A DNA stretch of 64,000 nucleotides from Solwaraspora sp. WMMD406 (GTDB taxonomy: Bacteria > Actinomycetota > Actinomycetes > Mycobacteriales > Micromonosporaceae): positions 4,216,001 to 4,280,000 of the forward strand of contig NZ_JARUBF010000001.1 in assembly GCF_029626025.1 (NCBI RefSeq). The letters are read 5' to 3'. The notes under the pieces are model-generated. The model was not told where the DNA came from and did no database searches. It saw only the letters and a list, made by a program, of their open reading frames with translations. Below, one piece after another: positions 10,151-28,500 of this stretch (position 1 is its first letter; every line of letters begins with the position of its first letter). The translations under genes were made by a program, and so were the position numbers.

Positions 10151-10890
10151 CCCCCTCGGTGACCTTGCACCGCGACGGCCGACTGGCCACCGTCACCCTG
10201 CGTCGACCCGACCGGCGCAACAGCTTCGACCTGGCCATGCTCGCCCGCTTCGAGGAGGTGCTGCATCTGCTCGGCCAGGACACCGACACCGACGTGGTGG
10301 TCCTCACCGGCGCGGGCAGCGCGTTCTGCGCCGGGACCGACCTGGACGAACTGGCCACCCTGGACGTCGCCACCACGATGGCGGTGCAGCGTCGGACGGC
10401 CGACCTGGTGGAGCGGTGGTACCGGCTGGAGCAGACCACCGTGACCGTGTTCAACGGACCCGCGATCGGTTCCGGCGCGGTCCTCGGCCTCGCCAGTGAC
10501 CTGCGGGTCGCCGCCGACAGCTGCTTCTTCAGCTTTCCGGAGGTGACCTTCGGGATTCCGTTGACGTGGAGCGGGATGGCCATCCTGGCCGACCTGGTCG
10601 GCGCGGACCGGGCCAAACGGTGGCTGCTGCTCGGGGAGCGGATCGAACCGGCGCGGCTGCGCGCGCTCGAACTGGTGACCGACGTGGTCCCGGTCGACCA
10701 GCTCGACGCCGCCCGGGCCGCGTTGTCGGACCGGCTGCTGTCGGTGTCGCCGGTGGGCCGGTCGATGACCAAACGCGCGGCTCGGCTGGCCGGGCCCCGG
10801 TTCGAAGCGGCCGCCGCCGACTCCTACCTGGGAGCGCTCAGCGTCGCGCTGCGCCCACCCGGCGACTATCCGAAGGGGACAGCCCGGTGA
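10147..10890 (+). CDS. Enoyl-CoA hydratase/isomerase family protein
   Basis: The protein is a crotonase-fold enzyme of 247 residues if it starts at TTG 10147, which forms a TTGA overlap with the lyase stop and has GGAGG four bases upstream. GTG 10159 is an alternative. Oxyanion-hole segments are visible as AFCAGTDLDEL and NGPAIGSGAVLGLASDLR. It should act on an acyl-CoA thioester such as the one made by the ligase encoded at 7236, by hydration, isomerisation or C-C hydrolysis. The residues that separate these activities cannot be assigned by eye. It is the seventh gene of the left operon. Confidence 0.82.
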   Translation: MTPSVTLHRDGRLATVTLRRPDRRNSFDLAMLARFEEVLHLLGQDTDTDVVVLTGAGSAFCAGTDLDELATLDVATTMAVQRRTADLVERWYRLEQTTVTVFNGPAIGSGAVLGLASDLRVAADSCFFSFPEVTFGIPLTWSGMAILADLVGADRAKRWLLLGERIEPARLRALELVTDVVPVDQLDAARAALSDRLLSVSPVGRSMTKRAARLAGPRFEAAAADSYLGALSVALRPPGDYPKGTAR

Positions 10891-12545
10891 AGGTCTACCA
10901 GGCGATCGCCGATGCGCTGGTCGAGCAGGGTGTCGACACCGTGTTCGGGCTGCTCGGCGACGCCAACATGTTCCTGGTCGCCGACCTGGTGCGGCGACAC
11001 GGCGTACGGTTCGTCGCGGCCCGCGACGAGAACGCCGCCGTGATGATGGCCGACGGCTGGGCCCGGGCCACCGGCCGCTGCGCCGTCGCCACGGTCACCC
11101 AGGGGCCCGGACTGGCGGTGGCCGGCCCGGCGTTGACCATCGCCCGGCAGGCCGGGACACCGCTGGTCCTGCTCGCCGGGGACACCCCGACGGCCGACCC
11201 GCTGCATGTGCAGAACTTCGAGCAGCAGCCGTTCGCGCTCGCGACCGCCGGTACGTTCGTGCCGGTCCGCTCGCCGGCCACCGTCAGCCGCGACGTGACC
11301 ATCGCCTTTCGGGACGCGAACCGGCTGCCCGGCCCGGTGGTGCTCAACGCCGCGATGGACCTGCAGGACCTCGACGCCGGGCCGGCTGACGCCGGAGACG
11401 TCAGCCGGCCCGGCGTCGACCAGCTGGGTGCCGTCGTACCGCCCCGGCCGCCGGCTGCCGTCGCGCCCGATCCGGACGCGCTGGCGGCCTTGGCCGACCG
11501 GATCCGCGCCGCCCGCCGTCCGGTGCTGCTGGCCGGACGCGGTGCCGAGCACGCCGCCGCCGAGCTGGTCGAACTGGCTGACCGCGCCGGCGCCGTGCTG
11601 ACCACCAGCCTGATGGCGGCCGGCCTGTTCACGGGCCACCCGTACTACCTGGGGGTGGCCGGTGGCCTGGCTCGCCCGCTGACCCGGCGACTGCTCGGTC
11701 GGGCCGATCTGGTGCTGACCGTCGGCGCCGGCCTCAATCGGTGGACCACCGACCACGGACGGCTGTTTCCCCTGGCCGAGGTGTACAGCGTCGATCAGGA
11801 CGGCGCGGCGATCGGTGCCCGGTGGCCGGTGGCCGGTGGGGTGGTCGGCGACGCCCGGATCGCGGCGGCCGCGCTCACCTCGTTACTACCGGCCGAGCCG
11901 CCGGCCCGCGACGACTGGCGGTCACCGCGCCTGGCCACGGCGATCCGCGAGGCGGATCCGTTCGACCGACTACCACCGGCGCGGGCCGGTGCCGACGGCG
12001 TCGACCCCCGACGGCTGATGGCGATCTGCGCCCGCCGGCTGCCCCCGGCACGCACCACCGTGGTCGGCGTCGGCCACTTCGGGGGGTGGCCGAACCTCTA
12101 CCTGGATTCCCCGGCCGTGGACCGGGCGCTGATCGCCCCGTGGGAGTTCGGCAGCATCGGCGTCGGGCTGCCGTACGCGATCGGCGCGGCAGTCGGCCGT
12201 CCCGAACGACCGGTCGTCGCCTTCGAAGGTGACGGCAGCCTGCTGACCGCGCTCGGTGAGCTGGACACGCTGGCACGACTGGCGGTACCGGTCCTGGTGA
12301 TGATCCTGGACGATTCGGCGTACGGCGCGGAGGTGCGCAAACTACGTCCGCGCGGCGCGGACGTGCGACTGGCGCGGTTCCCGTCGCGGGATCTGGCCGC
12401 TGTGGCCACCGCGTTGGGGGTGCCGGCGCTGCGGGCCCGGGACGAGGCGGAGGTCGAGGCGGCACTCGACCAACTGCTGCCGGTGACCGGGCCGGCTCTG
12501 GTGCAGGTGAGGATCGATCCGGATGTCGTACAGACGCATTTCTGA
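10887..12545 (+). CDS. Thiamine-diphosphate-dependent enzyme (acetolactate-synthase-like)
   Basis: GTG 10887 overlaps the previous stop (GTGA), giving 552 residues. The N-terminal PYR domain has the catalytic Glu in ARDENAAVMMADGWAR (about residue 48). The C-terminal PP domain has the ThDP/Mg motif beginning GDGSLLTALGELD near residue 448, closing with DDSAYG where many relatives have NN. The family covers acetolactate synthase, benzoylformate decarboxylase, oxalyl-CoA decarboxylase and 2-hydroxyacyl-CoA lyases. Sitting last in the operon after a CoA ligase and a crotonase, it may decarboxylate or ligate a 2-keto acid or cleave a 2-hydroxyacyl-CoA. Substrate unknown. Confidence 0.85.
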   Translation: MKVYQAIADALVEQGVDTVFGLLGDANMFLVADLVRRHGVRFVAARDENAAVMMADGWARATGRCAVATVTQGPGLAVAGPALTIARQAGTPLVLLAGDTPTADPLHVQNFEQQPFALATAGTFVPVRSPATVSRDVTIAFRDANRLPGPVVLNAAMDLQDLDAGPADAGDVSRPGVDQLGAVVPPRPPAAVAPDPDALAALADRIRAARRPVLLAGRGAEHAAAELVELADRAGAVLTTSLMAAGLFTGHPYYLGVAGGLARPLTRRLLGRADLVLTVGAGLNRWTTDHGRLFPLAEVYSVDQDGAAIGARWPVAGGVVGDARIAAAALTSLLPAEPPARDDWRSPRLATAIREADPFDRLPPARAGADGVDPRRLMAICARRLPPARTTVVGVGHFGGWPNLYLDSPAVDRALIAPWEFGSIGVGLPYAIGAAVGRPERPVVAFEGDGSLLTALGELDTLARLAVPVLVMILDDSAYGAEVRKLRPRGADVRLARFPSRDLAAVATALGVPALRARDEAEVEAALDQLLPVTGPALVQVRIDPDVVQTHF

Positions 12546-12597
12546 GCGGGTGCCGCTGGTGCTCCCGGCGCGTGCCACCGGTGCGCACCGCGAACGG

Positions 12598-13404
12598 CTA
12601 GCTGCCCCAGATGTCGCCGACGCCGTAGCCGAGTTGCCGGGACAGTTCGTCAGCGGTGCGTACGGCGGCGGCGGCGAGTTCGGCCACCTGTGCGTCGTCG
12701 GTGAGCCGGAAGATCGGCCCGGACACGCTGATCGAGGCGGTGACCACACCGAGCCGGTCCCGCACCGGCGCGGCGACCACCCGCAGACCTTCCTCGCTCT
12801 CCTCGTCGTTGAGGGCCCAGCCGCGCCGACGGACCTCGGCCAGGTCGGCGAGGAAGGTGTCGATGTCGGTGATGGTGTGTGGGGTCAGCGGAGTCCAGCG
12901 CGCGTCGGCGAGCAGCTCGCGGACCTGCTCGTCGTCCAGGTCGATCAGCAGTGCCTTGCCGGCGGCGCTGCACCAGAGCGGGATCCGCCGGCCGAGCCGG
13001 GAGACGAGTTGCAGGCTGTGCGACCCGGTGATCAGGTCGATCGAGATGGCGTCGAGGCCGTCCCGGATCGCCAGGTTGACCGACTCGCCCTGCTCGTCGG
13101 CGAGTTGTCGCAGCAACGGTCGGGCGACGGCGTGCATGTCGAGCCCGGCCAGGAATCGGGCACCCAGGTCGAACACGGTGACGCCGAGCCGGTACGTGCC
13201 GGTCTCCTCGTTGCGCTGCAGGAATCCGGCGTCGGCCAGGGCGCGGAACAGTCGGCTGGCGGTCGACTTGTGCAGACCCAGCTCGCGACTGACGTCACTG
13301 ACCTTGCGTTCGGGGGCGTCGCGCCGGAAGGCGAGCAGCACGCTGAGAGCGCGGTCGAGCGCCTGGGTGCCCGACTCCCGGCCGGGCTCGGTGACAGATG
13401 CCAT
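12598..13404 (-). CDS. IclR-family transcriptional regulator
   Basis: This 268-residue regulator has an N-terminal winged helix (ALDRALSVLLAF, then SRELGLHKSTASRLFRALADAGFLQRN at about 40-65) and a C-terminal IclR effector domain (VNLAIRDGLDAISIDLITG, AAGKALLIDL). ATG 13404 is preceded by GAGGTGGG at good spacing; an upstream in-frame start at 13437 has no ribosome site and lies in the AT-rich promoter region. IclR proteins commonly control aromatic degradation (PcaR, PobR, CatR types). It lies between the two catabolic operons and diverges from the hyuB-amn-BMC operon, so it is the likely substrate-responsive switch for one or both. Confidence 0.9.
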   Translation of the reverse strand: MASVTEPGRESGTQALDRALSVLLAFRRDAPERKVSDVSRELGLHKSTASRLFRALADAGFLQRNEETGTYRLGVTVFDLGARFLAGLDMHAVARPLLRQLADEQGESVNLAIRDGLDAISIDLITGSHSLQLVSRLGRRIPLWCSAAGKALLIDLDDEQVRELLADARWTPLTPHTITDIDTFLADLAEVRRRGWALNDEESEEGLRVVAAPVRDRLGVVTASISVSGPIFRLTDDAQVAELAAAAVRTADELSRQLGYGVGDIWGS

Positions 13405-13512
13405 CTTGCTTCCCACCTCTACGGTTGCTAGGTTCATAATATAACACTAGACCCATATTCTGGTCCACAGCTGCCTGACGCCCGCCCCGGAACCCGTTGC
13501 GAGGTCTACCGC
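13405..13512. promoter_or_regulatory. Divergent promoter/operator region, iclR and hyuB-amn-BMC operon
   Basis: Bases 13424-13461 are an AT-rich island in otherwise GC-rich DNA, with candidate -10 boxes in both directions (TATTCT 13456-13461 rightward; TATTAT within 13433-13445 leftward). Two 8-mers in it, CTAGGTTC (13428-13435) and CCCATATT (13452-13459), recur as reverse complements in front of the left operon (2390-2397 and 2404-2411). They are candidates for shared IclR-type regulator contacts. Confidence 0.5.
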
Positions 13513-15540
13513 ATGACCCTGAACCCCATCGATCTGGAGATCGTCACCGAAGGATTGATCTCGATCGTCCGGGAGATGCGCCAGACGATCTTCCGGACCG
13601 CGCACTCCCCGGTCATCGCCGACGCGCAGGACTTCTCCTGCGCGCTGTTCAACGCCGACGCGGAGATGGTCGCCCAGGGACGGGACATGCCAGGACACGT
13701 CATCGCGATGCCCGCCTCCGTCGCGGAGATCTTCACCGACTACCGGGACGAGTTCCGCCCCGGCGATCTCTACGTCGTCAACGACCCCTACCGGGGCGGC
13801 AGCCACCTCAACGACGTGACCCTCATCAGCCCGGTCTTCGTCGACGACGAACTGTTCCTCTTCCCGTGCGTACGGATGCACTGGGCCGACATCGGCGGAA
13901 TGACCCCCGGCAGCGTCTCCGGCCAGGCGACCGAGATCCTGCAGGAAGGCCTGCGGATCCCACCGATCCGGCTCATCGACGCCGGGCGGGACAACGTCGC
14001 GGCCATGCGCGTCCTGTTCGCCAACGTCCGGATGGCCGACGAACGCCGCGGCGACCTCGAATCCAGCATCGCCGCCTGCCACACCGCACAGCGCCGACTG
14101 CACGAACTCGTCGACCGCCACGGCAAAGACCTCATCGACGCGTGCGTGGCCGCCAACATGGACCGCACCGAACGGCGGCTGCGCGACCGAATCCGCGACC
14201 TGCCGGACGGCACCTACCACTACGAGGACTACCTCGACCTCTACACCGACGGCGACTACGACCCCGCCATGGTGCGGTGCGCGCTGACCGTCGCCGACAC
14301 CCAGATCCTCGCCGACTTCCGTGGCTCCTCACCGCAGGTCGCCGCCGTGGTCAACTCGTCGCTGGCGATGACCACCGCCGGGGTGTTCATCGCCGTCAAA
14401 TCCGCGCTCGACCCCGGCGGACTGGTCAACCACGGCGCATTCCGGCCCCTGACCGTACACACCGACCCCGGCACCGTCGTGCACGTCACCTACCCCGCCC
14501 CGGCCAACGCCCACAGCGAAGTCCGCAAACGAGTCATCTCCGCGGTCATGGCGGCACTCAGCCAGGTGGCACCCACCCTGATCGCCGCCGACCAGTTCGG
14601 CACCACCTTCCAGAACCTGATCGGCGGCGTCGACGACCACACCGGACGTCCGTACCTCTACTACGACTACCCGGCCGGCGGCAACGGCGGCTTCCTGGAA
14701 GCCGACGGACCCAGCGCGATGAACCCGGTCGACCTCGGCGACATCTCCACCATCCAATCCGTCGAACGCCTGGAGACCGAGATCCCGATCCGAGTCGAGG
14801 CCTGCGAACTACGCCCCGGATCCTGCGGCGACGGCCAACGGCGCGGCGGCTTCGGCACCCGACGCGCCACCCGACTGCTCGCCAGCCACGGCGCCTACTC
14901 CGTCCAGACCGACCGCACCACCGTCGCGCCGTACGGGCTGTCACTCGGCGCTCCCGGCGCCCCGACCTCGACCTACCTCGACCGCGACGGGCAACGGATC
15001 GACTTCGACACCCCCGGCAAGGTCGCCGGATACCGGATGCGCGAAGGCGACATCCTGGTGATGGAATCCGCCGGCGGCGGCGGATGGCGCGACCCGCTGA
15101 CCCGCGACCCCGACCAGGTCGCCAACGACATCGGCGACGACTACCTCACCGCCGAACAGGCCCGCGACCGGTACGGCGTACTCGTCGACCCGACCGGCCA
15201 GGTCGACGAATCAGCGACCACAGCCACCCGGGAACGCCTTCGCGCGAACCGCCGCTGGCTGCGGGTCACGACCACCGACCTGCCCAGCCACACCGGCGTC
15301 CGGGGCCGCCAGCGGATCGTCTACAGCCACCCCGACGGACCGCCGGACGGCGCGCTGATCGAACTGCACGGCAACCACCCCGCCCCGTTACGCGCCTGGA
15401 TCCGCCACGACCCGTCCCTCGCCGCCGACCAGGTCGCGCTCGACCCCGACGGCCTGCGGATCCTCGGCACCGACCCGGGCGACCGATCCTTCGTCCGCGT
15501 CCTGGCCGACCCCCGAACACCGACCGGAGGCCCGCGATGA
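13513..15540 (+). CDS. hyuB: Hydantoinase B/oxoprolinase family protein
   Basis: This 675-residue protein begins at ATG 13513 behind GAGGT. It has the HyuB family start DLEIVTEGLISIVREM, the segment FSCALFNADAEMVAQG, VNDPYRGGSHLNDVTLI and a Gly-rich region (AGGNGGFLEADG). HyuB works with HyuA in ATP-dependent ring opening or carboxylation; the partner hyuA lies about 8 kb upstream in the left operon. As first gene of the amn-BMC operon it may generate the aminophenol from a cyclic precursor, for example by opening a fused lactam or carbamate ring. That role is inference. A third subunit, found in acetone/acetophenone carboxylases, is not present. Confidence 0.88.
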   Translation: MTLNPIDLEIVTEGLISIVREMRQTIFRTAHSPVIADAQDFSCALFNADAEMVAQGRDMPGHVIAMPASVAEIFTDYRDEFRPGDLYVVNDPYRGGSHLNDVTLISPVFVDDELFLFPCVRMHWADIGGMTPGSVSGQATEILQEGLRIPPIRLIDAGRDNVAAMRVLFANVRMADERRGDLESSIAACHTAQRRLHELVDRHGKDLIDACVAANMDRTERRLRDRIRDLPDGTYHYEDYLDLYTDGDYDPAMVRCALTVADTQILADFRGSSPQVAAVVNSSLAMTTAGVFIAVKSALDPGGLVNHGAFRPLTVHTDPGTVVHVTYPAPANAHSEVRKRVISAVMAALSQVAPTLIAADQFGTTFQNLIGGVDDHTGRPYLYYDYPAGGNGGFLEADGPSAMNPVDLGDISTIQSVERLETEIPIRVEACELRPGSCGDGQRRGGFGTRRATRLLASHGAYSVQTDRTTVAPYGLSLGAPGAPTSTYLDRDGQRIDFDTPGKVAGYRMREGDILVMESAGGGGWRDPLTRDPDQVANDIGDDYLTAEQARDRYGVLVDPTGQVDESATTATRERLRANRRWLRVTTTDLPSHTGVRGRQRIVYSHPDGPPDGALIELHGNHPAPLRAWIRHDPSLAADQVALDPDGLRILGTDPGDRSFVRVLADPRTPTGGPR

Positions 15541-16538
15541 GCAACGTGTTCCGGCTCCCCGCCGCGCCGAGCGCCACCCGACGAACGGCACGCGGCGGCC
15601 ATAGCGCGACCGGCACACCGAACCCCGCCGGTACGGCGACCTCGGCCCGGCGACCCGGCATCGTCGCCGGCTACCTCAGCCCACACCCACCACACCTGAT
15701 CTACGGCGAGAACCCACCCCAGAACGAACCCCGGTCCCAGGGCGGCTGGGAGGTGCTGCGCTGGGCGTACGACCGACTCCGCCGCCGGATCCGCGACGTG
15801 CACCGACCCGACGTGCTGATCGTGCACGCACCACACTGGATCACGATGGTCGGCCACCACGTCAACTGCGTGCCCAACCCGCGCGGAGTCTCCGTCGAAC
15901 CGATCTTCCCGCACCTGTTCCGCTACCACTACGACTTCCAGACCGACGTGCCGCTCGCCGAGGCGATCGCCGACGCCGCCGCCGACTTAGGCCTGGTCAC
16001 CAGCAAGATGCGTGACCCCGGGGTACGGGTCGACTACGCCACCATCGGCGCCCTGCACATGGTCAACCCGGCCTGGGACATCCCCGTGGTGTCCCTGTCG
16101 GCCAACAACAACCCCTACTTCTACTCCGACGCGTCCCTCGGAGAAATGGAGATCCTCGGCGAAGCCACCCGACGCGCGGTCGAACACACCGGACGCCGCG
16201 CCGTCCTGCTCGGCTCCAACTCCCTGTCCCACCTGCACTGGCACGAGGAACCCGAACTACCCGAGGACATGGAACGCGAACACCCGTACAACAACCACCA
16301 GTACCGGTGGGACATGAAACTGCTGGAAACCATCCGTCAGGGCCCGACCAGCCGCCTGCGCGAACTGATCCCCGAACACATCGAAGCCACCGCCTCGGAG
16401 ACCAAGGCCGGGAGCCTCACCTGGCTGCTGTCCGCGATGGGCTGGCCTGAGGTGCCCGGCGACGTTCTCGGCTACGGAACGATCATCGGCACCGGCAACG
16501 CGGTCGTCGAGTGGACCCCGGAGGGCGACCATGGCTGA
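15537..16538 (+). CDS. amnB: 2-Aminophenol 1,6-dioxygenase, catalytic beta subunit
   Basis: ATG 15537 overlaps hyuB (ATGA), giving 333 residues. From about residue 41 the sequence follows AmnB of 2-aminophenol degraders closely as remembered: LSPHPPHLIYGENPPQNEPR, HAPHWITMVGHH, HEEPELPEDMEREHP and GYGTIIGTGNAVVEW. The class III extradiol Fe(II) ligands are expected in the HPPH and HAPHW motifs plus the Glu segment HIEATASETKAG. The enzyme cleaves 2-aminophenol next to the amino group to give 2-aminomuconate 6-semialdehyde. About 40 extra N-terminal residues, rich in Ser/Thr/Gly/Pro/Arg after a short FRL segment, are absent from the family start I know; they may target the protein to the microcompartment. 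Confidence 0.92.
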   Translation: MSNVFRLPAAPSATRRTARGGHSATGTPNPAGTATSARRPGIVAGYLSPHPPHLIYGENPPQNEPRSQGGWEVLRWAYDRLRRRIRDVHRPDVLIVHAPHWITMVGHHVNCVPNPRGVSVEPIFPHLFRYHYDFQTDVPLAEAIADAAADLGLVTSKMRDPGVRVDYATIGALHMVNPAWDIPVVSLSANNNPYFYSDASLGEMEILGEATRRAVEHTGRRAVLLGSNSLSHLHWHEEPELPEDMEREHPYNNHQYRWDMKLLETIRQGPTSRLRELIPEHIEATASETKAGSLTWLLSAMGWPEVPGDVLGYGTIIGTGNAVVEWTPEGDHG

Positions 16539-17358
16539 CCACGGCATTCACGCCGGTGTGCTGCTCCCCGGCATGCCCCACCTGCTCGCCGAGAAGCCGG
16601 CGACCAGCTGGAACGAGCTGGCCACCGCCGCCCGCGACGTCGGCGAACGGCTCCGCCGACTCGCCCCCGACGTGGTGCTGCTGCTGTCCACCCAATGGTT
16701 CACCGTGCTCGGCCACCAGTTCCAGTGCGACCCCAACCCACGGGGCCGGCACACCGACGAGAACTGGTACGCCTACGACTACGGTCACCTCGACTACGAC
16801 CTGCGGTTCGACGTCGACTTCACCGAACGCTGGGCCGCCCAGGTCGACGCCTGCGGCATGCAGGCCCGACGGACCCGCTACGACGGGTTTCCCATCGACA
16901 CCGGCGCCATCGTCACGTCCGCCCTGCTCGATCCGGAACGCACGCTGCGCTGGGCGCAGGTCTCCTGCAACCTGTACGCCGACGCCGACACCCTGGCCCG
17001 GGTCGGTCGGGCCGGGGCCCAGGCCGCCCGGGACGCCGGCCGCACCGCCGCCGTGGTCGTCGTCTCCGGCCTTTCCTCCGGGCTGATCCAACAGTGGATC
17101 GAACCGGACCAGGACCATGTCGCCGACCCGGCGCACGACCGATGGAACAACCGGATGCTGCACCTGCTCACCGCCGGTCAGACCGAGGAGGCGCTGGCGA
17201 TCCGGGAGGACTTCGCCCGCCAGGCCCAGGCGGACAGCCAGTTCCGAGCCCTCGCCTTCCTCGCCGGTACCGGCGCGGCAGCCGGACCCGCCACCCTGCA
17301 CTCGTACGGACCGCTCTGGGGCACCGGCGCCGCCGTCGTCTCCTGGAACCTGCCGTGA
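16531..17358 (+). CDS. amnA: 2-Aminophenol 1,6-dioxygenase, alpha subunit
   Basis: This 275-residue partner of AmnB starts at ATG 16531, eight bases inside amnB. It shares the LigB-like fold, but the HPPH of AmnB reads GMPH here and the HAPHW reads LSTQW, so the metal site is lost, as in known alpha subunits. Family-specific segments are HTDENWYAYDYGHLDYDLRF, YDGFPIDTGAIVTSALL, GLSSGLIQQWIEPDQDH and SYGPLWGTGAAVVSWNL. It is needed for the heterotetrameric dioxygenase. The order B then A matches the amn operon of 2-aminophenol-degrading pseudomonads. The next recognised genes are the microcompartment shell genes. Confidence 0.92.
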   Translation: MADHGIHAGVLLPGMPHLLAEKPATSWNELATAARDVGERLRRLAPDVVLLLSTQWFTVLGHQFQCDPNPRGRHTDENWYAYDYGHLDYDLRFDVDFTERWAAQVDACGMQARRTRYDGFPIDTGAIVTSALLDPERTLRWAQVSCNLYADADTLARVGRAGAQAARDAGRTAAVVVVSGLSSGLIQQWIEPDQDHVADPAHDRWNNRMLHLLTAGQTEEALAIREDFARQAQADSQFRALAFLAGTGAAAGPATLHSYGPLWGTGAAVVSWNLP

Positions 17359-17453
17359 CCAAGAGCTTCACCGTGACCGCCGTTGCCGCGGTGACCATCG
17401 CGGCCGCCGTGACCGATTCGAACCGACAAACCAGGAGGAACCCTGATGCGTAA
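17355..17453 (+). CDS. Possible 32-residue coupled small ORF between amnA and BMC-H
   Basis: GTG 17355 forms a GTGA overlap with the amnA stop and opens a 32-codon frame that ends at TAA 17451-17453, eight bases inside the first shell gene. The peptide has a short hydrophobic middle (SFTVTAVAAVTIAAAVTD) and a basic tail (NRQTRRNPDA). It lacks its own ribosome site and would depend on re-initiation. It may be a coupling device that carries ribosomes to the AGGAGG site of the shell gene, or chance. I know of no family for it. Confidence 0.3.
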   Translation: MTKSFTVTAVAAVTIAAAVTDSNRQTRRNPDA

Positions 17454-17739
17454 CGTCGCTGCGGGATTCGTCGAAGCAGAAGGGTTCATCCCGATCTTCG
17501 ACGCCGTCGACGCAATGGTGAAAGCGACCGAGGTGGAAGTCACCGGAGTGGTCCGGCTGGGCGGCGGAATCGTCGCCGTGGCCGTACGCGGTGACCTCGC
17601 CACTGTCGAAGAAGCAGTCGACATCGGCGAGGAGACCGCCCGGGCCAAGACCGGTCGGCCGGTCCGCTCGATCGTGTTCGCCAGCCCCTGTGACGCGGTG
17701 ACAGCGTTGGCAGTGGACCCCCGAATCGTCGGCAACTGA
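17446..17739 (+). CDS. Bacterial microcompartment shell protein, BMC-H (1)
   Basis: This 97-residue protein is a single Pfam-BMC-type domain: AAGFVEAEGFIPIFDAVDAMVKATEVEVTG in place of the canonical start [26 protein letters not shown], then the pore-loop region VVRLGGGIVAVAVRGDLATVEEAVDIGEETA. Such proteins form the hexagonal tiles of the shell facets. The central pore motif would be LGGG, where PduA-like proteins have IGSG. It starts at ATG 17446 with AGGAGG seven bases upstream. Being followed by a second BMC-H and a BMC-P gene makes a shell assignment firm. No extra domain or signal is present. Confidence 0.93.
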   Translation: MRNVAAGFVEAEGFIPIFDAVDAMVKATEVEVTGVVRLGGGIVAVAVRGDLATVEEAVDIGEETARAKTGRPVRSIVFASPCDAVTALAVDPRIVGN

Positions 17740-17756
17740 GCCGGAAGGAGCGACAC

Positions 17757-18083
17757 ATGTCGTCGGACAAGGCCATCGGCATCGTGGAAACCCGCGGCGT
17801 CGTAGCACTTTCAGCAGGCATCGAAGCGATGATCAAGACTGCCGACGTGCAGTGCATCGCCGTCGAGCGAGTCACCAGTGGCTACCTGGCCGCCGCCGTC
17901 CAGGGCACTCTGGCAGCCGTACGCCAGGCGGTGTCCGCCGGCGAGGCAGCCATCCGCCAGCACGGTGATCTGCGCAGCTCACAGATCTACCCGAAGCCCC
18001 ACCCAGCCACCGCCGCGCTGCTGGAGGAGGACGAACCCACCCGGATCCGCACCGTCATGGCGTCACTACGGAGCGACGTCTGA
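17757..18083 (+). CDS. Bacterial microcompartment shell protein, BMC-H (2)
   Basis: This 108-residue protein is a second single BMC domain: AIGIVETRGVVALSAGIEAMIKTADVQCIAVERVTSGYLAAAVQGTLAAVRQAVSAGEAA, closing with IYPKPHPATAALL as in classical hexamer proteins. The pore segment VTSGY differs from the LGGG of the first paralogue, so the two hexamers should present different pores. A tail of about 20 residues (EEDEPTRIRTVMASLRSDV) follows the domain. GGAAGGAG precedes ATG 17757. The gene lies 17 bases after the first shell gene and overlaps the BMC-P gene by one base. Confidence 0.93.
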   Translation: MSSDKAIGIVETRGVVALSAGIEAMIKTADVQCIAVERVTSGYLAAAVQGTLAAVRQAVSAGEAAIRQHGDLRSSQIYPKPHPATAALLEEDEPTRIRTVMASLRSDV

Positions 18084-18343
18084 TGATTCTCGCGGAAGTG
18101 GTTGGCAAGATCTGGCCCGACCATATCGTCACCTCGTTGCAGGGCCGCCGACTGGTCCTCGTCAGAGAACATCCGGACGGCCCGGACCGCGTCGCCGTCG
18201 ATCTGATGAACGCCGGCACCGGCAGCACCGTGCTGGTGGCCACCGACGAGGCGGCTGCTGCTGCCACCGGCGAACCAACCGTCGACGCCGTCATCGTCGC
18301 GTTGGTGGCCGATCGGCCTGGGGACGCCCCCAGCACCGACTGA
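18083..18343 (+). CDS. Microcompartment vertex protein, BMC-P (EutN/CcmL family)
   Basis: This 86-residue protein matches the pentameric vertex family EutN/CcmL/PduN: MILAEVVGKIWPDHIVTSLQGRRLVLVRE, then VAVDLMNAGTGSTVLVATDEAA, and the final strand VDAVIVALV. Pentamers cap the twelve vertices of the shell and are needed for closure. The ATG shares one base with the preceding stop (TGATG). It is the only vertex gene here; with the two BMC-H genes it is the minimum gene set for a closed icosahedral shell. Confidence 0.92.
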   Translation: MILAEVVGKIWPDHIVTSLQGRRLVLVREHPDGPDRVAVDLMNAGTGSTVLVATDEAAAAATGEPTVDAVIVALVADRPGDAPSTD

Positions 18344-18394
18344 CCTGCACCCGCACCGGGCCATCGCCGGGCAATCGCCGAAATGAGGTACCAC

Positions 18395-19924
18395 GTGAGC
18401 ACCGATTCGCCGTCCAGCCCACTGTGGCATCCCGATCTGCTCGTCGGCCGGCCGGCGGCGGGCGGTCCCGGCCTGCTGCGCAGCTTCGTGGATGGTCGGT
18501 TCGTCGACGTCGGGAAGCGGTTTGCGAAGGTGTCGCCGGTGACGGGGGAGACGGTGTTCGAGGTCGGGGAGGCCGACTTGTCGATGGTGGACGCGGCGGT
18601 GGCGGCGGCGCGGTCGGCGGTGCGTGGTCCGTGGGGGGTGATGGGCGAGCGGGACCGCTCGGCGGTGCTGCGGGCGGTCGCTGACGAGTTGGACCGCCGC
18701 TTCGATGACCTGGTCGCCGCCGAGGTCGCCGACACCGGCAAACCGGTCAGCCAGGCCCGGGCCCTGGACATCCCGCGCGGGGCGGCGAATTTCCGGGCGT
18801 TCGCGGAGATCGCCGCGACCGCGCCGACGGAGTCGTTCACGACGGTCACCCCGACCGGTGGTCGGGCGCTGAACTACGTGGTCCGCAAACCTGTCGGCGT
18901 CGTGGCGGTCATCGTGCCGTGGAATCTGCCGTTGCTGCTGCTGACCTGGAAGGTGGCTCCCGCGCTGGCCTGCGGCAACGCTGTGGTGGTGAAGCCGAGT
19001 GAGGAGACTCCGGCGTCGGCGACGTTGCTGGCCGAGGTGATGGCGGCGGTGGGTGTGCCGGACGGGGTTTTCAATGTGGTGCACGGGTTCGGGCCGGGGG
19101 CGGCGGGGGAGTGGTTGACGCGGCATCCGGGGGTGGACGCGGTCACGTTCACGGGTGAGTCGGCGACGGGGTCGGCGATCATGCGGGCGGCGGCTGACGG
19201 GGTGAAGGCGGTGTCGTTCGAGTTGGGCGGGAAGAACGCCGGTCTGGTGTTCGCCGACGCGGATCTGGACGCGGCGGTCGCGGGTTCGGTGCGGTCGTCG
19301 TTCACCAACGGCGGTCAGGTGTGTCTGTGTACGGAGCGGTTGTATGTGCAGCGGCCGGTGTTCGACGAGTTCGTGGACCGGTTGGCGGCTGCCGCCCGCG
19401 ACGTTCGGTGGGGTTGGCCGGCTGACGAGTCGATTGCGACGATGCCGTTGATCTCGCGGGGGCATCGGGACAAGGTGCTCGGCTTCTACGACCTGGCCCG
19501 CGTCGAAGGCGCTGACGTACGAGCTGGTGGTGGTGTGCCGGTGTTCGGTGACGCCCGTGACGGTGGCGCGTACGTGGAGCCGACCGTGTTGACCGGGTTG
19601 GGGCAGTCTGCGCGGGTGGTGCGGGAGGAGGTGTTCGGCCCGGTCTGTCATGTCGCCCCGTTCGATTCGGAGGAGGAGGCGTTCGCGTTGGCCAACGACT
19701 CCGACTACGGGTTGGCGGCGACGGTGTGGACCCGGGATGTGGGGCGGGCGCACCGGGCCGGATCGCGTCTGGACGTCGGGATCGTGTGGGTGAACACCTG
19801 GTTCCTGCGGGACCTGCGCACCCCGTTCGGTGGGGTGAAGGCCTCCGGGGTGGGTCGGGAGGGTGGCGTGCACTCGCTGGGCTTCTACTCCGAACTGACC
19901 AACGTCTGTGTGGACATGTCATGA
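18395..19924 (+). CDS. amnC: 2-Aminomuconate semialdehyde dehydrogenase
   Basis: This 509-residue NAD(P)-dependent aldehyde dehydrogenase starts at GTG 18395, six bases after GAGG; an ATG at 18383 has no ribosome site. The catalytic Cys lies in NGGQVCLCTERLYV (about 308) and the general-base Glu in VSFELGGKNAG (about 275). It resembles 2-hydroxy/2-aminomuconic semialdehyde dehydrogenases (AmnC, DmpC, XylG) and should oxidise the AmnBA product to 2-aminomuconate. About 28 extra residues precede the usual LRSFVDGRF start (TDSPSSPLWHPDLLVGRP), a candidate cargo-targeting tail. From about 18480 codons switch to G-ending usage, unlike the C-ending genes upstream. Confidence 0.9.
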   Translation: MSTDSPSSPLWHPDLLVGRPAAGGPGLLRSFVDGRFVDVGKRFAKVSPVTGETVFEVGEADLSMVDAAVAAARSAVRGPWGVMGERDRSAVLRAVADELDRRFDDLVAAEVADTGKPVSQARALDIPRGAANFRAFAEIAATAPTESFTTVTPTGGRALNYVVRKPVGVVAVIVPWNLPLLLLTWKVAPALACGNAVVVKPSEETPASATLLAEVMAAVGVPDGVFNVVHGFGPGAAGEWLTRHPGVDAVTFTGESATGSAIMRAAADGVKAVSFELGGKNAGLVFADADLDAAVAGSVRSSFTNGGQVCLCTERLYVQRPVFDEFVDRLAAAARDVRWGWPADESIATMPLISRGHRDKVLGFYDLARVEGADVRAGGGVPVFGDARDGGAYVEPTVLTGLGQSARVVREEVFGPVCHVAPFDSEEEAFALANDSDYGLAATVWTRDVGRAHRAGSRLDVGIVWVNTWFLRDLRTPFGGVKASGVGREGGVHSLGFYSELTNVCVDMS

Positions 19925-20754
19925 CCGTTGATGTTGAGGCCGCTGTCGCGGCGTTGACCGGGGCGTACGACTCGGGGGTGCCGTGTGCGCCGCTGCGGGA
20001 CCGGCTGTTGCCGGCGGGTGATGTGGCGGCGGCGTACGCGGTGCAACGGGCGACGGTGGCCGGCTGGACAGGCGCGGGCCGCCGCCGGGTGGGGGCGAAG
20101 ATCGGCCTGACGGCGCCGGCGGTGCAGGCCGCGTTCGGCGTCTACCAGCCCGACTTCGGGGTGCTCTTCGCCGACATGGCGGTGGCGGATGGTGACGAGG
20201 TCGACCTGGCCGGGCTGATCCAGCCCAGGGTGGAGGCGGAGGTGGCGTTCGTGCTCGGCGCGGATCTGCCGGACGGCCCGGCGACCGTGGTCGACGTGCT
20301 GCGGGCCACCGATTTCCTGCTGCCGGCGGTCGAGATCGTCGACTCCCGGATCACCGGGTGGGACATCTCGATCGTGGACACCGTGGCGGACAACGCGTCG
20401 TCGGGGTTGTTCGTGCTCGGCGACCGGCCGGTGCCGCCGGCCTCGGTGGACCTGCGCGAGTGCGGCATGGTGCTCGAATCGGCGGGTGAACCGGTGTCGG
20501 TGGGTGCCGGTGCGGCCTGCCTCGGCCATCCGGTGCACGCCGTCGCCTGGCTGGCCTCGACCATGGCCGCCGCCGGGGATCCGCTGCGGGCCGGTGACCT
20601 GGTGCTGTCCGGTGCGCTCGGCCCGATGGTGCCGGTCACCCCGGGGGCGGCCTTTGAGGCGCGGATCGGCGGGCTCGGTTCGGTGCGGACCAGATTCAGT
20701 GCGAAGCCGGCCGACCGGTCGGCCGGTAGCGAGTCGCCAGGGGAGGGGTCGTAG
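19921..20754 (+). CDS. amnF: 2-Oxopent-4-enoate hydratase
   Basis: ATG 19921 overlaps the amnC stop (ATGA) and gives 277 residues of the MhpD/DmpE/DmpH hydratase-decarboxylase family. Metal-site segments are visible: [33 protein letters not shown] and [28 protein letters not shown]. It would add water to 2-oxopent-4-enoate, giving 4-hydroxy-2-oxovalerate for the aldolase encoded two genes later. Two homologous family members occur in this operon (this one and 22705). I call this the hydratase and the later one the decarboxylase from sequence flavour and family habit; the two could be swapped. The last 20 residues (Ser/Gly/Pro rich) extend past the fold. Confidence 0.8.
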
Positions 20755-21680
20755 TGGGTGTCGGGGTGGCGGTGGTCGGGTCGGGCAACATCGGCACCGA
20801 TCTGATGATCAAGGTGTTGCGGTTGTCGGAGTCGCTGGAGATGGTGGCGATGGTCGGTATCGACCCGGAATCCGACGGGCTGGCCCGCGCCCGCCGGCTC
20901 GGCGTGGCGACCACGAGTGAGGGGGTCGACGGCCTGGTGGCGTTGCCCGAGTTCGCCGACGTCGGGTTGGTGTTCGACGCCACGTCGGCGGGTGCGCACC
21001 GGCGCAACGACGAGGTCCTGCGAGCTTACGGCCGGTCGGTGGTGGATCTGACCCCGGCGGCGGTCGGCCCGTACGTGGTGCCGTCGGTGAATCTGGACGC
21101 GCACCTGGGCGAGCCGAACGTCAACATGGTCACCTGTGGTGGGCAGGCCACCGTTCCGGTCGTCGCCGCCGTCGCGGCGGTGGCGCCGGTGGCGTACGCG
21201 GAGATCGTCGCCTCGATCGCGTCGCGGTCGGCGGGTCCGGGCACCCGGGCGAACATCGACGAGTTCACCCAGACCACCGCCCGCGCCCTGGAGGTCGTCG
21301 GCGGTGCCGGTACGGGTAAGGCGATCATCGTGTTGAACCCGGCGGATCCGCCGCTGTTGATGCGTGACACCGTCTACTGCCTGGTCCCGGCCGGCGTCGA
21401 CACCGGCCGGGTGGCCGACTCCGTCGAGGCGATGGTCGGGTCGGTCGCCGGCTATGTGCCCGGCTACCGACTCAAACAGGCGGTGCAGTTCGACCCGGTC
21501 GACGCGTACGTTCCGGCGTTGGGCGGCCACTTCGTCGGCACCCAGGTGTCGGTGTTCCTGGAGGTCTCCGGTGCCGGGCACTACCTGCCCGCGTACGCCG
21601 GCAACCTCGACATCATGACCTCGGCCGCTTTGCGCACAGCGGAACGTCTGGTCGCTGTCCGAGCGGAGGCACGGTCATGA
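20754..21680 (+). CDS. amnH: Acetaldehyde dehydrogenase, CoA-acylating
   Basis: GTG 20754 shares one base with the previous TAG stop and follows GGGGAGGGG. The 308-residue product has the Rossmann start [16 protein letters not shown], the catalytic Cys in [10 protein letters not shown] (about 128) and the conserved [16 protein letters not shown] and [16 protein letters not shown] of the DmpF/BphJ/MhpF family. It converts acetaldehyde plus CoA and NAD+ to acetyl-CoA. In this family it forms a channelled complex with the aldolase encoded just downstream. Acetaldehyde is the volatile, toxic species that metabolosomes typically retain, so this enzyme is a likely core cargo. Confidence 0.93.
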
Positions 21681-22708
21681 CCCGGCTGTACGTCCAGGAC
21701 GTCACGTTGCGCGACGGCATGCACGCCATCAGGCACCGCTACACCGTCGGGCAGGTCCGGGCGATCGCGGCGGCGTTGGACGCGGCCGGGGTGGACGCGA
21801 TCGAGGTCGCCCACGGCGACGGCCTGGCCGGCTCCAGCGTCACCTACGGCCACGGCGCGGCGTCGGACGCCGACTGGATCCGTGCTGCCGCCGACGTGGT
21901 CGACCGGGCGACGTTGACCACGTTGCTGCTGCCCGGCATCGGCACCATCGACGACCTGAAAGCGGCCCGCGACCTCGGGGTGACCAGTGTGCGGATCGCC
22001 ACCCACTGCACCGAGGCCGACGTCGCCGCCCAACACATCGGCTGGGCCCGCGACCACGGTATGGACGTCGCCGGGTTCCTGATGATGGCGCACATGAACA
22101 CCCCGGAAGGGCTCGCCGGGCAGGCCAAACTGATGGAGTCGTACGGGGCGCACTGCGTCTACGTCACCGACTCCGGCGGCCGGCTGCTGATGACCGACGT
22201 CGCCCAGCGGGTCGACGCCTACCGGCAGGTCCTCGACCCGCACACGCAGATCGGTATCCACGCCCACCACAACCTGTCGCTGGGCGTGGCCAACAGCGTG
22301 ATCGCCGTCGAGCATGGCACCACCCGGGTCGACGCCTCCCTCGCCGGCATGGGCGCCGGGGCCGGCAACGCCCCCCTGGAAGTGTTCACCGCCGTCGCCG
22401 ACCTGCACGGCTGGGAACACGGCTGCGACACGTTCGCGCTGATGGACGCCGCCGAGGACCTGGTCCGGCCGTTGCAGGACCGGCCGGTCCGCGTCGACCG
22501 GGAAACCCTGTCGCTGGGCTACGCCGGCGTCTACTCCAGCTTCCTGCGCCACGCCGAACGCGCCGCCGACCGCTACAACCTGGACGTGCGGTCCATCCTG
22601 ATCGAACTCGGCCGCCGACGGATGGTCGGCGGCCAGGAAGACATGATCACCGACGTCGCCCTCGACCTCGCCGACACCCCCCGCACCGCCCACGGAGGTG
22701 TGCAGTGA
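21677..22708 (+). CDS. amnG: 4-Hydroxy-2-oxovalerate aldolase
   Basis: ATG 21677 overlaps the amnH stop by four bases. The 343-residue protein has the DRE-TIM start [15 protein letters not shown], the metal-binding [16 protein letters not shown] segment near residue 195, and the C-terminal DmpG-type communication domain that contacts the acylating dehydrogenase ([19 protein letters not shown]). It cleaves 4-hydroxy-2-oxovalerate into pyruvate and acetaldehyde. Pairing with AmnH is conserved in all meta-cleavage pathways. Codon usage shifts from G-ending to C-ending within this gene. Confidence 0.93.
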
Positions 22709-23490
22709 CCAGCACAGACGTCGACCTCGCCGGGTTGGCCGCCCGCCTCGACGACGCCGCCCGGACAGCAGCGCCGATTCCGCAGCTCGCCGACACCCAC
22801 CGGATCGACATCGACACCGCCTACGCGGTGCAGCAGGCGCTGATCGCCCGCCGCACCGGCCGGGGCGAACACGTCGTCGGCGTCAAGATGGGCCTGACCA
22901 GCCGGGCGAAAATGGTCCAGGTCGGCGTCGACTCCCCGATCCTCGGCCACCTCACCGACACCACCCAGGTCGCAGACGGCGCCGCCGTGGACATCACCGG
23001 ACTGATCCACCCCCGCGTCGAACCGGAGATCGCCTTCCTCCTCGACCGGCCACCCACACCCGGGATGCCGTTCACCGACGCCGTCCGCGCCGTCGCCCCC
23101 GCCCTGGAAGTCATCGACTCCCGCTACGCCGACTTCACCTTCTCCCTGCCCGACGTCATCGCCGACAACACCTCCGCCGCCCTGTACGTCGTCGGACAAT
23201 GGCAGCCCGTCCCCGACGAAGTGGACAACCTCGGCGTCCTCCTCGACATCGACGGACACACCGTGCAGACCGGATCCACCGCCGCGATCCTCGGCGACCC
23301 CCGCCGCGCCCTCACCGCCGGTGTCGCCCTCGCCGACCGACACGGCCCGGCCCTCCAACCAGGCTGGATCTTCCTCGCCGGCGCGGCCACCGCCGCCGTC
23401 CCCCTCCCACGCGGCGTCCACGTCCGGGCCACCGTCCACGGCCTCGGCACCGCCGCCTTCACCACCACCACCGCAGGAAACACGCGATGA
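22705..23490 (+). CDS. amnE: 4-Oxalocrotonate decarboxylase
   Basis: GTG 22705 overlaps the amnG stop (GTGA), giving a 261-residue second member of the hydratase/decarboxylase family. Family segments are [43 protein letters not shown] and [26 protein letters not shown]. The wording [15 protein letters not shown] is that of 4-oxalocrotonate decarboxylases (DmpH/XylI/AmnE). It removes CO2 from the keto acid made by AmnD, forming 2-oxopent-4-enoate for AmnF, with which it usually forms a complex. Strongly C-ending codons contrast with amnF. Confidence 0.85.
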
Positions 23491-23897
23491 CCGCGCACCT
23501 GGTCCCCGGCAAAGCCACCCCACGCGGCAGGTTCCCACACGTCAAAACAGCCGGCGGGTTCATCTTCGTCTCCGGCACCTCCAGCCGCCGCCCCGACAAC
23601 ACCATCGCCGGCGCCACCGTCGACGCCTACGGCACCACCCAACTCGACATCCGCGAACAGACCCGCGCCGTCATCGCCAACATCGCCGACCTGCTCGCCG
23701 CCGTCGGTGCCAGCCTCACCGACCTGGTCTCCGTCACCACCTACCTGGTCAACATGAACGACTTCGGCGGCTACAACCAGATCTGGGCCGAACACTTCGA
23801 CCACACCGGACCCACCCGCACCACCGTCGCCGTCCACCAACTACCCCACCCACACCTACTCATCGAGATCCAGGCCATCGCCGTGGCACCGAGCTGA
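23487..23897 (+). CDS. amnD: 2-Aminomuconate deaminase (RidA family)
   Basis: This 136-residue protein starts at ATG 23487 in an ATGA overlap. It belongs to the RidA/YjgF fold but carries the AmnD-specific wording: [59 protein letters not shown] and [20 protein letters not shown]. AmnD hydrolyses 2-aminomuconate to 4-oxalocrotonate and ammonia, the step that distinguishes aminophenol meta-cleavage from catechol meta-cleavage. Its presence makes a 2-aminophenol-type substrate far more likely than catechol. It is the last gene of the tightly coupled pathway operon. Confidence 0.92.
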
Positions 23898-24045
23898 CCA
23901 ATCCATCGGCGGGGCGGAGCCGGTGTGTCGGGCGGTAGGGCAGGATGGGCAGGGTTCGATTGCAGGGTCGCTGATCGGCATCTGCCGGCGGTCAGCGCCG
24001 AGCCTGACGAGACGTCCGTAGCCGCCATCTACCGGAGAGATCATC

Positions 24046-25206
24046 GTGACCGTCGACGTTCACCCGCAGAGTTCGCCACTGGACACCTTCGTCGTGCCAC
24101 CCGGCCTGGAGACGCCGAACCTGTTGCTCGACCTGGACATCCTGGAACGCAATCTCGACGAGATGGCCGGGTTGTGTCAGCGGCATCGGGTGTCGTTACG
24201 GCCGCATGCCAAGACCCACCGGGTGGCGCGGATCGCCCAGCTGCAGCTGGAGCACGGGGCGGATGGGATCTGCGTGGCCAAACTCGGCGAGGCGGAGGCA
24301 CTCGTCGCGGCGGGGGTGTCCCGGATGACAGTGGCCTATCCGCTGGTCGGCGCGGACAAGGCGCGGCGGGCGGTGGCCTTGGCGCAGCGCTGCGAGTTGA
24401 CCGTCGCGGCGGACAGCGTCATCGGGGCGCGTAGCCTCGGAGAGGCGTTCGCCGCCGAGGGGCGGCTGGTTGACCTGCTTCTCATCGTGGACAGCGGCCT
24501 TGGTCGGTGCGGAGTCGCTCCGTCGGACGCCGTCCGGGTCGCCTGGGACGTCGCCGAGCTGCCGGGAGTGCGGCTGACCGGGGTGATGACCCACGAAGGC
24601 TCGGTCTACGCGGCGGCTGACCAGTCGGACCTGGTCGCCCGGTCGAAGGCCGCTGCCGCGTCGATGGTGTCGGTCGCCGAGGCGATCCGTTCGGCTGGGT
24701 TGACCCTGTCGACAGTGTCCCTGGGGTCCTCGGCGTCGGCCCGGACCGTGGTGGCCGAGCCGGGCGTGACGGAGATCCGACCCGGCATCTACGCTTTCAA
24801 CGACTTGGGCCAGATCGCGTTGGGTAACGCCACCGCGGCGACGTGCGCGGTGCGGGTGTTGAGCACCGTGGTCAGTCGTCCGGAGCCGCATCGGGCCTGT
24901 ATCGACGCCGGGTCGAAGTCGTTGAGCCAGGATCGCCTGCCGGCGTCGGCGTACGTCGACGAGCTTTCCGGCTATGGCCACCTGGTCGGCCTGCCGGGGT
25001 GGCGGATCGAGCGGCTTTCCGAGGAGCATGGCTGGTTGCGGTGGGTCGGCGCGGGTGACCCGACGCCGTTGACGATCGGGCAGCGGGTCCAGGTGATCCC
25101 CAACCACGTCTGCACGGTGTTCTCCAGCCTCAACGAGGTCACGGCGCTTCGCGGTGGTGAGATCGAGGCGATCTGGTCGACGATCGGTCCGGGTGCTTCC
25201 CGCTGA
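24046..25206 (+). CDS. D-threonine aldolase/D-serine dehydratase-like PLP protein
   Basis: This 386-residue protein has the fold-type III PLP barrel of alanine-racemase N-terminal domains, with the PLP Lys expected in LRPHAKTHR near residue 50, and the D-threonine aldolase/DSD1-type C-terminal domain with a putative metal site in IPNHVCTVF. Family members cleave D-3-hydroxy amino acids or dehydrate D-serine. GTG 24046 follows GGAGAG, with 148 bases separating it from amnD, so it may be read through from the amn-BMC operon or have its own promoter. Its link to aminophenol catabolism is unclear. Confidence 0.82.
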   Translation: MTVDVHPQSSPLDTFVVPPGLETPNLLLDLDILERNLDEMAGLCQRHRVSLRPHAKTHRVARIAQLQLEHGADGICVAKLGEAEALVAAGVSRMTVAYPLVGADKARRAVALAQRCELTVAADSVIGARSLGEAFAAEGRLVDLLLIVDSGLGRCGVAPSDAVRVAWDVAELPGVRLTGVMTHEGSVYAAADQSDLVARSKAAAASMVSVAEAIRSAGLTLSTVSLGSSASARTVVAEPGVTEIRPGIYAFNDLGQIALGNATAATCAVRVLSTVVSRPEPHRACIDAGSKSLSQDRLPASAYVDELSGYGHLVGLPGWRIERLSEEHGWLRWVGAGDPTPLTIGQRVQVIPNHVCTVFSSLNEVTALRGGEIEAIWSTIGPGASR

Positions 25207-28304: not shown

Positions 28305-28446
28305 TCCAGCCCCGTTCGGTCTTCCTGTGTTCGGCCCGGCCGGTGGTCCGCCCGGACCCTGCCTTGTCCACTGGCTACGGACACGGTCACCGGCCGCCAG
28401 CGCCAATGCTGCTATTTGACCAGAAAACGCACCTACCTAGTGCAGA

Positions 28447-28476: not shown

Positions 28477-28500
28477 ATGGGAGCTTTGGAGGCCGTACCG

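Follow-up and report, generated by a model that had tools for sequence, protein, structure and literature searches.

Bacterial microcompartments (BMCs) of the aromatic (ARO) type were named as a class in a 2021 BMC catalogue (PMC8217296) and characterized in 2023 by Doron, Sutter, and Kerfeld, who reported a dioxygenase structure and showed the coupled reactions of the dioxygenase AmnAB and the dehydrogenase AmnC in Micromonospora rosaria (PMC10470539). By title, these two papers were the only ones concerning the ARO system in the full-text literature on microcompartments and aminophenol. Doron et al. described complete single-operon loci from Micromonospora and Verrucosispora, noted that many ARO species lack the late-step genes in their main locus, and reported that M. 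rosaria did not grow on 2-aminophenol, calling the precursor unknown (PMC10470539). How cargo enters the shell and what the true substrate is are stated open questions for this type. Here we analyze an ARO locus in a 64,000-bp window of Solwaraspora sp. WMMD406 (contig NZ_JARUBF010000001.1, positions 4,216,001 to 4,280,000).

Positions 13513 to 23897 (plus strand) of the window hold one operon of HyuB, AmnB, AmnA, two BMC-H proteins, BMC-P, AmnC, AmnF, AmnH, AmnG, AmnE, and AmnD, in which neighboring genes overlap by 1 to 8 bp or are separated by gaps of ≤87 bp (Table 1). A first-pass annotation made from the sequence had placed three shell genes between amnBA and the other amn genes and had read the operon as encoding all steps from 2-aminophenol to pyruvate and acetyl-CoA, including a RidA-type deaminase. 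All of these genes lie where it put them, and searches with PF00936 and PF03319 recovered the shell genes well above the cut-offs. Curated NCBIfam cut-offs were passed by AmnC, AmnH, and AmnG; AmnE, AmnF, and AmnD scored below theirs and were named by model rank, gene order, and synteny with M. rosaria. The annotation listed the operon genes except HyuB, with which its range begins. It was right to see a complete ARO example, in a class that it took to be merely predicted and that had already been described with a structure and enzyme assays (PMC10470539).

The locus carries the marks of the class. The first BMC-H is of the H_lipstickred type and shares 89% identity with that of M. rosaria DSM 803 (locus L070 in our numbering), against a threshold of >55%; the second, of the H_cerulean type, has the P(R/K)PH motif as PKPH; the dioxygenase is of the AmnAB type, with a 30- to 35-residue N-terminal extension on its beta subunit, and its best solved relative is the 2-aminophenol 1,6-dioxygenase beta subunit 7txy_B; AmnC exceeds the cut-off of TIGR03216 for AmnC/DmpC-type semialdehyde dehydrogenases; and an IclR-type regulator adjoins the operon. 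The presence of a Rid family protein in the position of the deaminase AmnD assigns the locus to the 2-aminophenol subtype. The shell comprises two BMC-H types and one BMC-P, with PF00936 matching twice in the whole genome (7.16 Mb, three contigs), both times at the operon, and PF03319, searched in the locus, matching once. Gene order from HyuA to AmnD is the same as in M. rosaria, with identities of 80% (AmnB), 82% (AmnA), 89% and 81% (BMC-H), 73% (BMC-P), and 84% (AmnC); differences are an AmnE that is only 59% identical and a BhcC-like pyridoxal phosphate (PLP) gene that follows AmnD in the window genus. The window thus holds an ARO-type BMC locus encoding the full 2-aminophenol meta-cleavage pathway, a kind of locus described before. 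What this analysis adds is a putative recurrent terminal tag, a kinase/HAD module, a hydrolase reading of HyuAB, and a possible proteobacterial member.

An AmnB alignment found 518 relatives in species genomes, and the best 80 loci were kept. Among these, 29 (L063 to L090 and L093) have ARO shell genes, 50 have none in the fetched stretch, and one (L091) ends inside amnA. The 29 include loci from Micromonospora, Verrucosispora, Actinomycetospora, Pseudonocardia, Kibdelosporangium, Amycolatopsis, Streptomyces, and Nocardioides, as well as metagenome-assembled genomes (MAGs). With start codons assigned by reading, the AmnB extension begins with a conserved M-[SAGT]-x-[VI]-F-[RHQ] and continues as a variable linker rich in P, A, T, and R. 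This start was present in all 27 complete AmnB N-termini of the shell loci; a regular expression matched 26 of them, that of L075 was recognized by eye, and those of L079 and L083, truncated at contig ends, were left out. It also occurs in L091 and in the window. It was missing from 46 of the 47 scorable AmnB proteins encoded without shell genes nearby, the sole match (L122) falling far upstream of the likely start. Terminal extension and linker thus occur on shell-associated homologues and not on others, with exceptions at L083 (for the HAD protein, below) and L091 (tagged, shell not found). Doron et al. proposed the extension as a possible encapsulation determinant and predicted no helix in it (PMC10470539); our AlphaFold model of AmnB was too poor to judge its helicity (predicted local distance difference test [pLDDT], 45). 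We conclude that it is probably a non-helical encapsulation tag.

To find the tag on other proteins, we scanned an AmnB-tag profile over the other open reading frames of the ARO loci (510 called, AmnB included). Six of its ten best matches were terminal: four at the C-termini of HAD phosphatase-like proteins and two at N-termini, of an MBL-fold protein in L086 and an M24 protein in L088. The HAD C-terminus carries [RKN]-V-[FW] followed by 2 to 11 residues in 14 of the 15 ARO loci with a HAD gene, after linkers of varying length, and the widened motif occurred in 0 of 40 HAD relatives from elsewhere (ten weaker relatives from ARO genomes, the rest a class sample, several partial). The same C-terminal motif in ARO loci was found in none of AmnA (0/29), AmnC (0/16), AmnF (0/12), AmnH (0/18), AmnG (0/17), AmnE (0/12), AmnD (0/11), each kinase-like subunit (0/15), or HyuA (0/11), and in one HyuB (1/11, L091); outside the window, late-step enzymes were scored at their C-termini. 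The start pattern ATGDSNMRNGTNTTYCRN gave 30 matches in 15 ARO genomes, versus 14 for a reversed control. Thirteen of the 30 were AmnB; a GTG start and an isoleucine hid two further AmnB from the pattern. Among the 17 others, two were the MBL and M24 genes, both within ∼8 kb of amnB in ARO loci, and 12 were open frames of ≤144 residues; L195 is internal to a longer frame, L175 has a start that looks like a signal peptide by eye and may be a real gene elsewhere, and L196 opens a frame of 264 residues, perhaps likewise a real gene elsewhere. The other match in the window genome (L169) is a 14-residue frame.

From these patterns we consider it moderately likely that the encapsulation tags of ARO BMCs form a new class without a helix, in which x-[VI]-[F/W] stands at the terminus on a flexible linker, at either end of at least four unrelated enzymes (AmnB, HAD, MBL, and M24), in a system that extends beyond the Actinobacteria. 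The tag would mark the hydrolases as extra lumen enzymes; in many lineages the unmasking of 2-aminophenol (or catechol) would then take place within the shell, with the kinase outside and the tagged phosphatase inside in loci of the Pseudonocardiales type. Several observations weigh against this proposal. Column-shuffled profiles reach scores similar to those of the real one, and the tag core is only 3 to 5 residues long; we rejected the profile score alone as proof of a tag, and the case is therefore made from position at the protein end, co-occurrence, and controls. The HAD protein of L083 lacks the motif, and the first HAD rule (V-F plus R/H/Q) matched 5 of 12 proteins and was widened after the rows had been seen. 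Eight of the 15 HAD loci, all V-W, come from one genus, Actinomycetospora, so the rows are not independent. The MBL and M24 tags were each seen in one genome, and the control with relatives covers HAD only. In the window, where the termini were read directly, AmnB is the only pathway enzyme with V-F at an end, and no tag is present on AmnC, plainly required next to AmnAB. Finally, PF00936 was not found in the 4.6-Mb MAG of L091 despite its tagged AmnB, on a contig that stops inside amnA. As a separate observation, HyuB of L091 ends in RVFS and the AmnB C-terminus there is VFHV; each was seen once and was not used.

The HAD gene belongs to a module. The order AmnB, AmnA, shell genes, PPDK_N protein, phosphoenolpyruvate (PEP)-utilizer protein, HAD occurs in 14 loci, and L071 has the same genes rearranged. 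The pair consists of a ∼363-residue PPDK_N protein and a ∼607-residue protein with a PEP-utilizer domain, followed by the HAD phosphatase-like protein. In L084 the PEP-utilizer gene runs up to the contig end, the stretches of L074 and L077 stop too soon, and all three genes are missing from the fetched stretches of L063 to L070 (eight loci) and L086 to L088. HAD orthologues (≥220 bits) turned up in 12 of the 15 ARO genomes searched outside the Micromonosporaceae, and these 12 coincide with the genomes whose loci carry the kinase-like pair. Judged by published descriptions, the pair is similar in size and domain content to the phenol kinases HpeHI and CreHI and to phenylphosphate synthase; HpeI is 40.6 kDa and HpeH 71.2 kDa, and HpeHI works with the phosphatase HpeD (PMC9618137). 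The ARO pair differs from those phenol-kinase pathways in lying beside BMC shell genes and in its HAD partner having a tag-like end. Our AlphaFold model of the 607-residue protein was too poor to use (pLDDT, 61). With a kinase acting outside the shell and a tagged phosphatase within it, an aromatic would enter the compartment in masked form. The text of Doron et al. names a single upper-pathway candidate in the locus, HyuB together with HyuA; the kinase-like pair and HAD may appear in its supplement (PMC10470539).

The possible proteobacterial member is L091, from a MAG titled Betaproteobacteria (G694, contig 45). Its HyuA, ligase, lyase, crotonase, IclR, HyuB, AmnB, and AmnA genes are arranged as in the window, at 42 to 64% identity, and the thiamine-diphosphate (TPP) enzyme gene is missing. 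Tetranucleotide use of its contig correlates with that of nine other contigs of the MAG at r values of 0.90 to 0.96, compared with 0.54 to 0.80 for seven actinobacterial ARO stretches and 0.82 to 0.86 for three proteobacterial amn stretches. The contig ends where shell genes would follow, and its AmnB is tagged; L091 suggests that ARO loci may occur outside the Actinobacteria. Of 300 Micromonosporaceae genomes sampled, 15 have a match to the first BMC-H (E ≤ 0.001); in 10 of these, the window genome included, identity is ≥89%. Among the loci without shell genes, L111, L114, L119, L120, L122, and L123 place AmnBA relatives beside ABC transporter ATPase genes in alphaproteobacterial MAGs (one titled Spongia), and five of these six have a second AmnA-like gene ∼6 kb away.

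Upstream of the operon, the window encodes an ABC importer and a run of genes from HyuA to the TPP enzyme. The order HyuA, ligase, lyase, crotonase, TPP enzyme, IclR, HyuB, AmnB is kept in all eight loci L063 to L070, and the ABC genes and the HyuA-to-AmnB order recur in six of six further Micromonosporaceae genomes, whose species may overlap with those of L063 to L070. Considered as a whole, the locus is probably best explained as a complete ARO locus with a cytosolic upper pathway. The importer would take up an aromatic amide or lactam, which cytosolic HyuAB together with the CoA ligase, lyase, crotonase, and TPP enzyme would convert to 2-aminophenol. This would enter a simple shell of two BMC-H proteins and one BMC-P, into which AmnB would be drawn by its N-terminal tag (core x-[VI]-F-[RHQ]) and flexible linker. 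Inside, AmnAB would open the ring and AmnC would at once oxidize the unstable semialdehyde before it cyclizes to picolinate, leaving AmnD, AmnE, AmnF, AmnG, and AmnH to finish to pyruvate and acetyl-CoA, probably in the cytosol. In relatives, a similar terminal core, R-V-[FW], would mark further lumen enzymes: the HAD phosphatase-like protein that accompanies the phenol-kinase-like pair, the MBL hydrolase, and the M24 hydrolase. That 2-aminophenol itself serves as the food is doubtful, given the lack of growth of M. rosaria on it (PMC10470539).

A possible alternative, which we entertain tentatively, is that the breakdown of plant benzoxazinoids supplies the natural precursor, a benzoxazolinone or an N-acyl-2-aminophenol, with HyuAB opening it in this lineage and unrelated hydrolases doing so at other ARO loci. 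HyuAB occurs in the Micromonosporaceae loci, in L091, and, at low identity (28 to 40%), in L086 (Streptomyces) and L088 (Nocardioides), where the one subunit scanned in each was caprolactamase-like. In L080, a gene like N-acyl homoserine lactone lactonases, of the MBL fold, adjoins amnB; in L077, a relative of that gene lies two genes before amnB, from which an amidohydrolase gene separates it. BxdA, a member of the lactonase family, converts 6-methoxy-2-benzoxazolinone, itself a benzoxazinoid product (PMC11297187), and the ARO genes are likened to it by family. This precursor would explain neither the window's CoA ligase, lyase, crotonase, and TPP enzyme nor the kinase-like pair elsewhere. 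Across ARO loci, the hydrolases hint at a shared theme in which amides, lactams, or cyclic carbamates would yield 2-aminophenol. Near some of these loci stand BD-FAE-type hydrolase genes; we considered them as arylformamidases and dropped the idea, the families matched being lipase/esterase models. Two other neighborhoods were seen. In L086 (Streptomyces sp. SID8352), positions 14207 to 18554 hold a flavin-containing/Baeyer-Villiger-like monooxygenase, an alpha/beta hydrolase, and the tagged MBL gene after AmnC, a set that could make aminophenol from an aryl ketone. Glutamine-synthetase-like and glutamine-amidotransferase genes lie near the ARO locus of L080 (4578 to 8124); this combination resembles aniline activation systems.

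Doron et al. suggested instead that HyuAB, 20 to 30% similar to acetophenone carboxylase and of the same superfamily, acts as an aromatic decarboxylase or carboxylase making 2-aminophenol (PMC10470539). The solved relatives speak for the hydrolases of the superfamily: HyuA scores 450 bits against the N-methylhydantoinase 7hk5 and 333 against 6yra, versus ≤254 for acetone and acetophenone carboxylases, and HyuB scores 231 (7hk5) and 227 (6yra) versus 103 for acetophenone carboxylase. NCBIfam caprolactamase models rank top for HyuAB, with scores below their cut-offs. A ring-opening hydrolase is therefore the better guess, and we regard carboxylase-type chemistry as unlikely.

For the tag itself, the terminal motif could be a docking peptide between enzymes, a metabolon tag binding, for example, AmnA or AmnC, and not a shell signal. 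It does sit on enzymes of one gene neighborhood, and L091 has a tagged AmnB in a MAG in which no shell gene was found. Still, the untagged AmnB proteins of loci without nearby shell genes have an AmnA partner too, and the contig of L091 breaks off just where shell genes would follow; docking therefore seems rather improbable to us compared with encapsulation. The first-pass annotation had further proposed that the shell holds acetaldehyde, and one could extend this to the whole pathway, including AmnG and AmnH, since all genes share one operon in this lineage. This we consider quite unlikely. Among the pathway proteins of the window, the tag is found on AmnB alone; elsewhere among ARO loci, the late genes are encoded on the other strand, lie several kilobases off, or do not occur in the fetched stretch. 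AmnG/AmnH-type enzymes pass acetaldehyde within their own complex, which also counts against this version. Late genes missing from many main loci (PMC10470539) point the same way. That only AmnB has a targeting extension and the HAD, MBL, and M24 ends are chance, in keeping with the short core, the overlap with shuffled profiles, the weight of one genus among the HAD rows, and a published text that, as far as available to us, discusses the AmnB extension only (PMC10470539), is very unlikely given the HAD motif in 14 of 15 proteins versus 0 of 40 and the location of both tagged MBL and M24 starts inside ARO loci.

Table 1. Features of the ARO locus and its surroundings, in window coordinates
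Feature	Position	Strand	Evidence
NMT1/SsuA-type substrate-binding lipoprotein, ABC importer	2435..3397	+	PF13379, 64 bits; SsuA family below cut-off
ABC importer ATPase, nitrate/taurine type	3394..4269	+	Family model; conserved in family
ABC importer permease	4271..5098	+	PF00528, 98.8 bits; conserved in family
HyuA, ATP-dependent hydantoinase/lactamase-type subunit A	5215..7239	+	PF01968, 288 bits; 7hk5, 450 bits
AMP-forming acyl-CoA ligase	7236..8792	+	PF00501
Lyase, adenylosuccinate lyase/carboxymuconate cycloisomerase superfamily	8789..10150	+	PF00206
Crotonase (enoyl-CoA hydratase) family protein	10147..10890	+	PF00378
TPP enzyme, acetolactate synthase/2-oxo acid decarboxylase superfamily	10887..12545	+	PF02776, PF00205, PF02775; GTG start chosen by hand
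IclR-family regulator, divergent from operon	12598..13437	-	PF01614, 165.5 bits
HyuB, hydantoinase/lactamase-type subunit B, first operon gene	13513..15540	+	PF02538, 534 bits
AmnB, 2-aminophenol 1,6-dioxygenase beta subunit	15537..16538	+	PF02900; 7txy_B, E 8.8e-185
Putative AmnB N-terminal tag (core SNVFR) and variable linker, ∼40 residues in all	15537..15656	+	Sequence comparison of AmnB N-termini
AmnA, dioxygenase alpha subunit	16531..17358	+	PF02900, 39.4 bits; 82% identity to M. rosaria
BMC-H, H_lipstickred type	17446..17739	+	PF00936, 61.5 bits (cut-off 24.5); 89% identity to M. rosaria
BMC-H, H_cerulean type, PKPH motif	17757..18083	+	PF00936, 67.7 bits (cut-off 24.5)
BMC-P shell vertex protein	18083..18343	+	PF03319, 57.4 bits (cut-off 25)
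AmnC, 2-aminomuconate/2-hydroxymuconate semialdehyde dehydrogenase	18383..19924	+	TIGR03216, 806.6 bits (cut-off 693)
AmnF, 2-keto-4-pentenoate hydratase	19921..20754	+	NF008461 top model, 304 bits, below cut-off
AmnH, acetylating acetaldehyde dehydrogenase	20754..21680	+	TIGR03215, 449.8 bits, above cut-off
AmnG, 4-hydroxy-2-oxovalerate aldolase	21677..22708	+	TIGR03217, 564.4 bits, above cut-off
AmnE, 4-oxalocrotonate decarboxylase	22705..23490	+	TIGR03218 (dmpH model) top, 207 bits, below cut-off
AmnD, RidA-type 2-aminomuconate deaminase	23487..23897	+	TIGR00004 (Rid family), 70.7 bits, E 1.2e-19, below cut-off; 80% identity to M. rosaria
PLP protein, D-serine dehydratase/3-hydroxyaspartate aldolase (BhcC) family	24046..25206	+	Below cut-off; operon membership uncertain

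A consensus scan of positions 12500 to 25300 gave two promoter-like sites (0.4 in shuffles), one at 18102 (plus strand) inside the operon and one just upstream of the IclR gene (minus strand), and two terminator-like sites, both on the minus strand (3.1 in shuffles), neither set being taken as evidence of function. The BhcC-like PLP gene follows AmnD in four of four window-genus genomes examined and was not found in three of three other Micromonosporaceae genomes. A glyoxylate link, raised by this gene and by the BhcR-like best match of the IclR gene, was dropped because both matches are below cut-offs and, among the genomes examined, the BhcC-like gene was seen in the window genus only. Further along the window, positions 26394 to 36243 hold open reading frames that, by eye from their translations, resemble polysaccharide biosynthesis genes (sugar epimerase/dehydratase, chain-length regulator, low-molecular-weight phosphatase, and aminotransferase).

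A short motif recurring on unrelated proteins would open cargo entry to direct test and would let ARO cargo be listed by sequence; the upper-pathway genes beside each locus give a short list of candidate chemistries, and a compact tag would also serve for loading enzymes into engineered shells. Apart from the AmnB extension in Doron et al., we found no earlier description of such a tag in the full-text literature searched by title, with preprints and most subscription journals lying outside that search. Compared with the shell-free amn pathway, known for example from nitrobenzene degraders and represented here by the 50 loci without shell genes in the fetched flank, the ARO loci share AmnB, AmnA in nearly all cases, and other amn genes in many; the shell-free loci differ in having no ARO shell genes near and in the almost uniform lack of the AmnB tag. 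Like the canonical encapsulation peptides of other BMCs, the putative ARO tag is a short terminal sequence joined by a linker to non-homologous cargo. Whereas canonical peptides are short helical domains (PMC12339742), the ARO tag is distinguished by a conserved core of 3 to 5 residues with V-F.

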